In this document: positions 21,354 to 24,840 of the stretch, one piece after another | How positions within the stretch are numbered: the stretch's first letter is position 1 | Layout: each line of letters starts with the position of its first letter | From: Methanoregula formicica SMSP | GTDB taxonomy: Archaea; Halobacteriota; Methanomicrobia; Methanomicrobiales; Methanospirillaceae | Direction: 5' to 3' | Length of the DNA: 64,000 nucleotides | Assembly: GCF_000327485.1 (NCBI RefSeq) | Contig: NC_019943.1 | Location: 186,001 to 250,000, forward strand | Translations under genes and position numbers: made by a program | Notes under the pieces: model-generated | Databases searched by the model: none | Seen by the model: only the letters and a program-made list of their open reading frames with translations | What the model was told of the DNA's origin: nothing

Positions 21354-21410
21354 GGTGGCACCCGGCAATAACTCTTTGTAGTTCCCTGATAGATCGGATC
21401 AGTGAAGCTG

Positions 21411-22376
21411 ATGACCGTACCTGAAACCGCTGAGAAGATAAAGAGCATGGAGATCCGGGGTGCCGGCAGGATCGCCCGGACGGCAGCCGAAGCCTTAAGG
21501 GATCATGCTCTCTCCCTGGCTGCCCCGGACACTGCAGCGTTCAAAAAGGAGATGGAACAAGCCGCAGCGCTGCTCGTCTCGACGCGGCCCACTGCCGTAT
21601 CGCTCCCGAATGCCGTCCATTATGTCATGGCCGGCCTTGACCCGTCCGTGAACGTGGACGAGGCAAGGAACGGGGTTATCCACCGCGCCGAACAGTTCAT
21701 CCAGTCCTCGCAGCATGCGGTGGAACGGATCGCCGGGTTCGGTGCCCGTCATATCCGGGATGGCGACGTGATCCTCACGCACTGCAACTCGGAGGTCGCC
21801 CTCGGCTGCATGATCGAGGCCCGCCGGCAGGGCAAGGAGATCGAGGTCTTTGCAACGGAAGTCCGGCCCCGGAACCAGGGGCACATCACGATCCGAACCC
21901 TGAACGATGCAGGGATCAAAACAAACTTCATCGTCGATTCGGCGGTACGGTCATTTATCAACAATGTCAATCTCGTCATTGTCGGGGCGGACGCAGTGAC
22001 GGTGAATGGGGCAGTGGTCAACAAGATCGGGACCTCTCAGGTGGCCCATACCGCTGCCGAGGCGAGGGTGAACGTGATCGTTGCCGCTGAGACCTACAAG
22101 TTCGCACCCCGGACCGTTGTCGGGGAACTGATTGAGATCGAGGAACGACCCCCCAACGAAGTCCTGCCTGACGAGATCGCACGGACGCTGCCGAACGTGA
22201 CGGTCCGCAACCCGGCATTCGATGTCACCCCGCCGGAATATATCGACCTCATCGTCACCGAACAGGGGGCCATCCCGCCGCAGATGGCCTACGTGATTAT
22301 CCGCGAGTATCTCGGGTGGGAGATCGGGGAATTTAACCCGGGCGGTGGTTCCCCAGCGGGTTTCAACGGGGAATAA
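21411..22376 (+). CDS. e2b2: ribose-1,5-bisphosphate isomerase
   Basis: The 321-residue protein belongs to the eIF2B-alpha/MtnA-related isomerases and matches archaeal ribose-1,5-bisphosphate isomerase: an N-terminal helical domain, GDVILTHCNSEVAL with the catalytic Cys, FATEVRPRNQGH, VIVGADAVTVNGAVVNKIGT with the catalytic Asp, and a C-terminal VRNPAFDVTPPEYID. It converts ribose-1,5-bisphosphate to ribulose-1,5-bisphosphate in the archaeal AMP-salvage route feeding form III Rubisco; neither Rubisco nor AMP phosphorylase is in this window. Start choice is between GTG 21402 and ATG 21411; I took the ATG. It diverges from the HAD gene. Confidence 0.9.
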   Translation: MTVPETAEKIKSMEIRGAGRIARTAAEALRDHALSLAAPDTAAFKKEMEQAAALLVSTRPTAVSLPNAVHYVMAGLDPSVNVDEARNGVIHRAEQFIQSSQHAVERIAGFGARHIRDGDVILTHCNSEVALGCMIEARRQGKEIEVFATEVRPRNQGHITIRTLNDAGIKTNFIVDSAVRSFINNVNLVIVGADAVTVNGAVVNKIGTSQVAHTAAEARVNVIVAAETYKFAPRTVVGELIEIEERPPNEVLPDEIARTLPNVTVRNPAFDVTPPEYIDLIVTEQGAIPPQMAYVIIREYLGWEIGEFNPGGGSPAGFNGE

Positions 22377-22537: not shown

Positions 22538-23887
22538 ATGCAGGGATCAAAACCCATACAAAAGACAGTTCCTTTTTCCAAGCTCCAGATTGAGAAGCTG
22601 GAGAAGGAATACCCCACGCCGTTCCATATCTACGATGAAGAGGCGATCCGTGCCGGATCGCGACGGTTATACAAGGCATTCTCGTGGGTAACAACGACAG
22701 ACGGGAAAGCGGGCGGATTCAAGAACTACTTCGCGGTCAAGGCCCTCCCCAACCCGTACATCCTTCGTCTCCTGTACGAGGAGGGTATGGGAGCAGACTG
22801 CAGCTCGCTCCCCGAGCTCCTGCTGGCCGATGCTGTCGGGATCAAAGGAGAGGAGATTATGTTCACCTCCAATGATACGCCGGCAGAAGAGTTCATCCAG
22901 GCAAAAAAACTGGGGGCAATCATCAACATCGACGATATTACCCACCTTGACTTCCTGGAGAAGACCGCGGGGATCCCCAAGCTTCTCTGTTTCCGCTACA
23001 ACCCCGGGGACGACTACAGCCACGGCAACCCGATCATCGGCAATCCGAGTGAAGCGAAATACGGGCTCACGCACGATCAGATCCTCAGGGCATACACAAC
23101 CGCACAGCAGAAAGGTGCAACCCGTTTCGGCCTGCACGCTATGATCGTTTCCAACCAGCGCGATGAGGAGATTCTTGCCGATGCAGCCCGGCTGCTCTTC
23201 AGCCTCGCCGTCGAGATCCATGAGAAAACCGGCATCCGGGTGGAGTTCATCAACCTTGGCGGGGGTATCGGCATCCCCTATTCTCCTGTCGATCACCAGG
23301 TGGACATTGAGGACTATGCACGCAGGGTGCACGGGCACTATAAGGAGATCATTGTCAAGAACGGTCTTGCGCCAATACGCATCGTCATGGAAAGCGGAAG
23401 GGCGGTGACCGGACCGTACGGCTACCTGGTCTCCCGTGTACGCCACGTTGCGAAGAAGCATCGCGATTATGTCGGGCTGGACGCGTGCATGGCAAACCTG
23501 ATGCGTCCCGCCCTCTATGGCGCTTATCACCATATTACGGTGCTGGGAAAAGAGGACCGTCCCCTGGACCACGTGTACGATGTGACCGGCAGCCTCTGCG
23601 AAAACAACGACAAGTTCGCAGTCCAGAGGATCCTTCCCGAGATCAGCTCAGGGGACCTCATGGTTATCCACGACACGGGAGCGCATGGCTACGCGATGGG
23701 GTTCAACTACAACGGCAAGCTCCGGTCTGCCGAGTTCCTGATGCAGAACGGTGGTACATTCAAACTGATCCGGAGAGCAGAGACCGCAAACGATTATTTT
23801 GCCACCCTGGACTTTGAAGGATCGGACTTCTCCGGCCTTGCACGGAACAAGGCAACCTCCCCTCCCCAGGTAGGGAACAAAAAATAA
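22538..23887 (+). CDS. lysA: diaminopimelate decarboxylase
   Basis: The 449-residue fold-type III PLP enzyme has the Schiff-base Lys68 in NYFAVKALPNP, the phosphate-binding FINLGGGIGIPY, MESGRAVTGPYG, and a C-terminal VTGSLCENNDKFAV with the catalytic Cys plus DTGAHGYAMGFNYNG. It decarboxylates meso-diaminopimelate to lysine, the last lysine-synthesis step. The neighbouring dapF (131 nt downstream, same strand) would supply meso-DAP. About 160 nt upstream are non-coding, with no clear regulatory structure. Confidence 0.94.
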   Translation: MQGSKPIQKTVPFSKLQIEKLEKEYPTPFHIYDEEAIRAGSRRLYKAFSWVTTTDGKAGGFKNYFAVKALPNPYILRLLYEEGMGADCSSLPELLLADAVGIKGEEIMFTSNDTPAEEFIQAKKLGAIINIDDITHLDFLEKTAGIPKLLCFRYNPGDDYSHGNPIIGNPSEAKYGLTHDQILRAYTTAQQKGATRFGLHAMIVSNQRDEEILADAARLLFSLAVEIHEKTGIRVEFINLGGGIGIPYSPVDHQVDIEDYARRVHGHYKEIIVKNGLAPIRIVMESGRAVTGPYGYLVSRVRHVAKKHRDYVGLDACMANLMRPALYGAYHHITVLGKEDRPLDHVYDVTGSLCENNDKFAVQRILPEISSGDLMVIHDTGAHGYAMGFNYNGKLRSAEFLMQNGGTFKLIRRAETANDYFATLDFEGSDFSGLARNKATSPPQVGNKK

Positions 23888-24018: not shown

Positions 24019-24840
24019 ATGGAAATTCATTTCAGCAAACTGTACGAGAACGGCAATGATTTCATCGTTATCGATGAGCGGGAGCATACCGTTATTCCCG
24101 ATGACATGAAAGGGCAGTTCGCAGCAATTTACTGCGACCGGCGCTTCGGTATCGGGGCTGACGGGGTGATCTTTCTCTCAAAATCGGAGAAAAACGATCT
24201 CCGGATGCGTCTTCTCCAGCCCAACGAGAGCGAGGCTGAAATATACGGAAATGGTATCCGCTGCCTTGCCAAGTACGCGTTCGATGCCGGGTACGTGAAG
24301 GAGACCTGTACCGTGGAGACTCTCGCCGGCGAAATAGCAATTTCAATGGGGTACAAAGAGGACACATTTGCTGCAACCATCACTATGACACCGCCAAAAT
24401 TCGACAGGAACGATATTCCTGCCACCGGTTCGGGAGAGTACAATGAGACCATCGAAGGCTACGAAGTCCATGCCGTGAACACGGGTGTCCCGCATGCTGT
24501 CATCATCGTTGACGCCGTTGATGCTGTTGATCTCGGGTCGATAGCCCCGAAGATCTGCCACCACGCCAGTTTCCCGAAAGGTGCGAATGTAAACTTTGTC
24601 GAGCGGACCGGCCCAGACAGCATCCGGATCCGGACATTCGAGCGGGGCGTGGAAGATGAGACCCTGTCATGCGGGACTGGCGCAACGGCTTCAGCAGCCG
24701 TAGTCCACAAACTGGGACTTGCCGGTGATGTCGTGGATGTCGAGACAAAGGGAGGGCCGCTGACGATCTCCCTGAACGATGGCGGGGCGAAGATGGAAGG
24801 CCCGGCTACAACGGTCTTTGCCGGCAGGATTATCTTCTGA
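24019..24840 (+). CDS. dapF: diaminopimelate epimerase-like protein; first catalytic Cys apparently Tyr
   Basis: The 273-residue protein is clearly DapF-like: KLYENGNDFIVID at the N-terminus, NESEAEIYGNGIRC, and FERGVEDETLSCGTGA near the end. DapF uses two cysteines as acid/base pair. The second is present (Cys218 in SCGTGA), but the first, normally in the CGNG motif, reads Tyr76 (codon 24244-24246) in IYGNG. A cysteine six residues later (Cys82) is the usual second cysteine of that segment, not the catalytic one. Normal racemisation chemistry would need both. The ATG at 24019 matches the family start; the upstream Met at 23965 adds unrelated residues. It lies downstream of lysA, consistent with lysine synthesis. 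Confidence 0.88.
   Translation: MEIHFSKLYENGNDFIVIDEREHTVIPDDMKGQFAAIYCDRRFGIGADGVIFLSKSEKNDLRMRLLQPNESEAEIYGNGIRCLAKYAFDAGYVKETCTVETLAGEIAISMGYKEDTFAATITMTPPKFDRNDIPATGSGEYNETIEGYEVHAVNTGVPHAVIIVDAVDAVDLGSIAPKICHHASFPKGANVNFVERTGPDSIRIRTFERGVEDETLSCGTGATASAAVVHKLGLAGDVVDVETKGGPLTISLNDGGAKMEGPATTVFAGRIIF

Follow-up and report, generated by a model that had tools for sequence, protein, structure and literature searches.

In the window analysed here, a 64,000-nucleotide stretch of the Methanoregula formicica genome, a gene for a diaminopimelate (DAP) decarboxylase (lysA) lies between e2b2 and a gene for a DAP epimerase (dapF) (Table 1). The predicted DapF is full-length, has no internal stop and scores well over the curated TIGR00652 cut-off (242.4 vs 114.65 bits). 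As the preliminary description of this DNA had pointed out, the first of the two catalytic cysteines is replaced by tyrosine, and the second (Cys218) and the ERG motif (residues 208-210) are retained. Alignment with solved DapFs places Tyr76 under the cysteine of the CGNG motif. No other cysteine takes this position; Cys82, in the sequence GIRC, is the usual neighbouring cysteine and no substitute. A search for a second dapF gene yielded a single copy only in the 2.82-Mb single-contig genome. Tyrosine at this site is not typical of the order: cysteine is present in each of the 24 aligned DapFs whose genomes were not seen to carry the LysA type described below, and tyrosine is confined to a few congeners. 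The earlier view that the usual two-thiol reaction is compromised and that a different lysine route was worth seeking was judged right.

Table 1. Features of the lysA-dapF locus, with positions counted along the window.
Feature	Position	Strand	Evidence
e2b2, ribose 1,5-bisphosphate isomerase family	21402..22376	+	TIGR00511, 451 bits
lysA of foreign type, 449 aa, proposed LL-DAP decarboxylase	22538..23887	+	TIGR01048, 296.3 bits
lysA codon 202, Met replacing His of the HIGS motif	23141..23143	+	Met in 99% of 115 new-type LysAs
lysA codon 383, His replacing Tyr of the GAYG motif	23684..23686	+	His in 100% of new-type LysAs
dapF-like gene, 273 aa	24019..24840	+	TIGR00652, 242.4 bits; PF01678, 179.7 bits
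dapF codon 76, TAC (Tyr) at the first catalytic Cys of CGNG	24244..24246	+	sequence; alignment with solved DapFs; congeners
dapF codon 218, TGC (Cys), second catalytic thiol, retained	24670..24672	+	sequence; alignment

The adjacent lysA, previously described as intact, does have a complete open frame, but the native lysA of this lineage is a different gene. Its product falls marginally under the TIGR01048 cut-off of 297.9 bits (other members of its clade score on either side), compared with 487.1 bits for the native-type LysA, and is only about 31-36% identical to the classical LysA of the order. We found this new type in nine Methanoregula genomes (G000, which is M. formicica, and G006, G008, G013, G014, G019, G020, G241 and G324), the congeners' proteins being 84-92% identical to that in the window. 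The gene precedes dapF, and in every contig that extends far enough it is flanked on the opposite side by e2b2. In G011 and G005, e2b2 and dapF are directly adjacent; e2b2 is the ancestral upstream neighbour of dapF and marks the site at which lysA was inserted. No other gene was gained at the Methanoregula dapF locus. In most Methanoregula and elsewhere in the order, classical LysA is encoded directly behind dapL (dapL-lysA-RPA-radA), and this native gene is absent between dapL and RPA in all three genomes checked (G000, G006 and G014). Comparison of the window's lysA with its orthologues in G006, G008 and G324 revealed fewer synonymous differences between species than in the flanking e2b2 and radB (e.g., pS of 0.37 vs 0.59-0.62 for G006-G324), which suggests that the insertion moved between Methanoregula species after their split. 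A second, distant LysA-like decarboxylase is encoded elsewhere in the M. formicica genome (G000:C1:1072571-1073698; 166.9 bits to TIGR01048) and has counterparts in many relatives with classical LysA.

Within Methanoregula, abnormal or missing DapF occurs only in genomes with the new LysA. Codon 76 is also TAC in G014 and G008 (DapFs 86 and 71% identical to that of M. formicica, respectively) and is GAC (Asp) in G241. In the DapF of G019, the substrate-binding Asn, His159 and the Glu of ERG are no longer present; in that of G020, the motifs are degenerate (CGNAICC and ERD). No dapF and no detectable remnant of it were found in G006 and the single-contig G324, where the gene that comes next adjoins lysA directly. 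The partial G013 DapF is normal at CGNG in its first 190 residues, and G013 is the only one of the nine genomes without a demonstrated defect. We scored changes at 96 columns that are invariant in 24 comparison DapFs from the order. The six full-length DapFs of new-LysA genomes have 4-13 changes (5 in the window, 11 in G014) vs 0-4 in other Methanoregula in a leave-one-out count (Mann-Whitney p about 1e-4, kinship ignored). The dN/dS ratio of dapF between M. formicica and G014, both with Tyr76, is about 0.10, twice that of control genes and far from 1. A plain pseudogene is unsupported, given the open frame and this ratio; the Tyr76 protein may still be folded and have a use, or the loss of constraint may be recent. 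Tyr76 is apparently one of several ways in which Methanoregula is losing DapF, and the genus would represent a replacement caught in progress, with close relatives at different stages.

The association extends beyond the genus. Across the 296 genomes of the phylum that were scanned, LysA matches were two-peaked (E of about 1e-170 or less, or about 1e-67 or more). DapF is absent from 47 of the 50 genomes with the new LysA and damaged in the remaining three; where the new LysA is lacking, 226 of 246 genomes have DapF and 20 do not (Fisher p about 1e-34, kinship ignored). For example, all 46 Methanosarcinaceae genomes with the new type lack DapF and all four with classical LysA have it. About 14 genomes of the scan, probably haloarchaea (families f13, f17, f20 and f27; they include G106, G194, G258, G263, G275 and G279), lack a DapF match, and their LysA homologues are all distant.

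Spirochaetia behave similarly. The new type occurs in 82 of 118 genomes, with no PF01678 match in 61, a weak match in 7 and a match over the cut-off in 14; three of these 14 DapFs keep both motifs intact. All five Spirochaetia with classical LysA have intact DapF. Full-length DapF-like frames that lack the catalytic motifs (AGNA, SYDA, LGDA, SLFA and others in their place) persist in Spirochaetia with the new LysA (loci L199, L246, L247, L250-L255 and L261-L263).

The new LysA clade is widespread, with members in Negativicutes, Bacteroidota, Spirochaetales, DPANN archaea, Methanosarcinaceae and others. In a broad sample of 50 carriers, 27 have no DapF, although some single metagenome-assembled genomes (MAGs), that of Sterolibacterium for example, may be incomplete or wrongly binned. 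The new type is the sole LysA in 25 of these 27; Ktedonobacter and a Brocadiia MAG also encode the classical form. The DapF-positive carriers in this sample are bacteria, most of which would need meso-DAP for peptidoglycan. Some Bacteroidota with the new LysA (Prolixibacteraceae and Marinilabiliaceae) have a DapF-like gene with serine in place of each catalytic cysteine (SGNG and ASGSSS; L147:7101-7949, L173:7035-7880, L160:6980-7816, L122:4638-5471 and L191:1495-2340). It adjoins lysA in several loci and is the sole DapF-like gene in the four genomes searched.

The LysA tree joins Methanoregula first to a Micrarchaeon and next to Spirochaetales; Methanosarcinaceae group with Chloroflexota and Woesearchaeota. 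These separate placements point to two acquisitions of the new LysA, by Methanoregula and by Methanosarcinaceae, with the same outcome. As the comparative numbers share ancestry, the case for co-loss is based on recurrence of the pattern across separate lineages rather than on the p-values.

We then considered the active site of the new LysA. The PLP-binding Lys68 and Cys354-Glu355 are conserved in the window protein. Classical LysAs (n = 28) invariably have the His of HIGS and the Tyr of GAYG, as do the five distinct solved classical LysAs that were aligned; both positions, which contact PLP in this fold of ornithine and DAP decarboxylases, are altered in the new type (Table 1). The new clade also has CENND where the classical enzyme has CE(S/T)GD.

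The remainder of the lysine pathway reaches LL-DAP. The M. formicica DapL is over the equivalog cut-off, and DapL or a homologue was found in every relative searched, with or without normal DapF. DapL had been proposed as a possible source of meso-DAP; this does not hold, since the product of DapL is LL-DAP and, in the relatives searched, the enzyme or a homologue occurs whatever the state of DapF. A bypass via DAP dehydrogenase (Ddh) was also rejected. No DAP dehydrogenase over the cut-off was found in the 27 DapF-less carriers, and TIGR01921 gave only weak fragments in M. formicica and its relatives. DapF-less genomes encode operons such as asd-lysC-dapB-dapA-dapL-lysA (Micrarchaeota L098) and dapB-dapA-dapL-lysA (spirochaete L174), and those of Woesearchaeota L099 and L105 likewise reach LL-DAP. 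The lysine from which Methanosarcina makes N-epsilon-acetyl-beta-lysine is reported to come from the DAP pathway (PMC9128505), and the M. acetivorans control genome has LysA and no PF01678 match. Thus, these organisms appear to convert LL-DAP to lysine with no DapF.

The sequence comparisons show the substitution, the exchange of lysA, the loss of DapF alongside this LysA in several lineages and the altered PLP pocket; we infer from them that the new LysA acts on LL-DAP and that the Tyr76 DapF is inactive or unneeded. A distinct DAP decarboxylase subfamily entered the lineage and was inserted between e2b2 and dapF, and the meso-specific lysA beside dapL was lost. The incoming enzyme would bind LL-DAP, the DapL product, as a PLP aldimine and decarboxylate an L-centre. 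As the two L-centres of LL-DAP are equivalent, the product would be L-lysine and no epimerisation would be needed. Nor would meso-DAP be required for peptidoglycan, which archaea are not known to have; dapF would thus have become redundant, with the C76Y allele as one stage of its decay. We consider it quite probable that members of the new clade decarboxylate LL-DAP directly and that exchange with the native lysA makes DapF unneeded for lysine. The earlier reasoning that an intact neighbouring lysA implies a need for meso-DAP therefore fails, because this lysA belongs to a foreign subfamily that in archaea is almost confined to genomes without DapF. Evidence that runs counter to our reading comprises the low dN/dS of dapF, the normal CGNG of G013 and the three spirochaetes in which the new LysA coexists with intact DapF motifs.

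Several other explanations were weighed. The new LysA could be bifunctional, epimerising LL-DAP on its own PLP and decarboxylating the D-centre of the resulting meso-DAP. All of the co-occurrence evidence fits this equally well, LysA and alanine racemase share a fold, and the PLP-facing residues are altered; however, two activities would be required in one site, and the sequence gave no hint of a second catalytic base. We regard such an enzyme as unlikely. A similarly low probability attaches to an unlinked epimerase, for example a PLP racemase like DapF2, that replaced DapF and left the new LysA as an ordinary meso-DAP decarboxylase. Although displacement of this kind has been proposed in Staphylococcus and others (PMC9026213), it leaves the tight match between DapF loss and LysA type unexplained. 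Moreover, there is no candidate beside lysA in the DapF-less operons read, no alanine-racemase-like gene was seen among the lysA neighbours read, and lysA is the only gain at the Methanoregula locus.

It is also conceivable that the Tyr76 DapF remains in use. It could act as an epimerase whose base is tyrosine or some other residue, or have a non-catalytic or new role. The open frame and the constraint between the two Tyr76 genomes would agree with this, as would the double-serine gene retained in Bacteroidota and the degenerate frames that persist in Spirochaetia. Such use is difficult to reconcile with Asp at the same site in G241, deletion of the gene in G006 and G324, loss of other active-site residues in G019 and G020, and the many changes at otherwise invariant positions in the G014 copy. 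A different catalytic base or a new role is thus less likely than loss of need, and we rate continued use as quite improbable. A sequencing or assembly error at codon 76, for which a single G-to-A change (TGC to TAC) would suffice, has almost no probability. Separately assembled congeners have TAC in two cases and GAC in one, within otherwise diverged sequence, and the codon is therefore no base-calling slip.

Among these readings we favour, on balance, an epimerase-free DAP pathway (DapA-DapB-DapL-LysA') that operates via a widespread, undescribed LL-DAP decarboxylase, whose arrival in Methanoregula would now be eroding dapF. Its range would take in Methanosarcinaceae, several DPANN archaea and most Spirochaetia sampled. 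The tyrosine in the window thus appears to be the local sign of a variant of the DAP pathway that dispenses with the epimerase by exchange of the decarboxylase. Genome papers hold meso-DAP to be the obligatory lysine precursor of the DAP pathway (e.g., PMC2650404), and dapF is listed as a pathway step even for methanogens (PMC9128505). In the literature searched, whose coverage leaves out most subscription papers, no account of an enzyme of this kind came to light, the phrase "LL-diaminopimelate decarboxylase" had no match and nothing was found on a DapF gap in Methanosarcina. If the proposal is correct, lysine pathway reconstructions of many archaea and spirochaetes would lose their gap and EC 4.1.1.20 would have to be divided according to stereochemistry. 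A family of fold-type III decarboxylases would then provide a natural system for comparing specificity for L- and D-centres.

Compared with known systems, the window DapF resembles solved DapFs (e.g., 2otn, 5ha4 and 9mro; TIGR00652) in its fold, full-length match, second catalytic cysteine, ERG motif and active-site Asn and His, and differs from the standard enzyme in having tyrosine for the first catalytic cysteine. The new LysA shares with the classical meso-DAP enzyme (TIGR01048; solved as 1twi, 2p3e and 2yxx) the two Pfam domains, the PLP lysine, the Cys-Glu motif and a place at the end of the lysine operon. Unlike classical LysA, it has Met202 and His383 and occurs mostly in genomes without DapF. 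The Ddh bypass also yields lysine without DapF, but Ddh is absent from M. formicica and the 27 DapF-less genomes. DapF2, a PLP racemase-like protein, is likewise a non-orthologous answer to a missing DapF that was inferred from gene context (PMC9026213); it is proposed as a separate epimerase, whereas in the genomes described here the decarboxylase itself has been exchanged.
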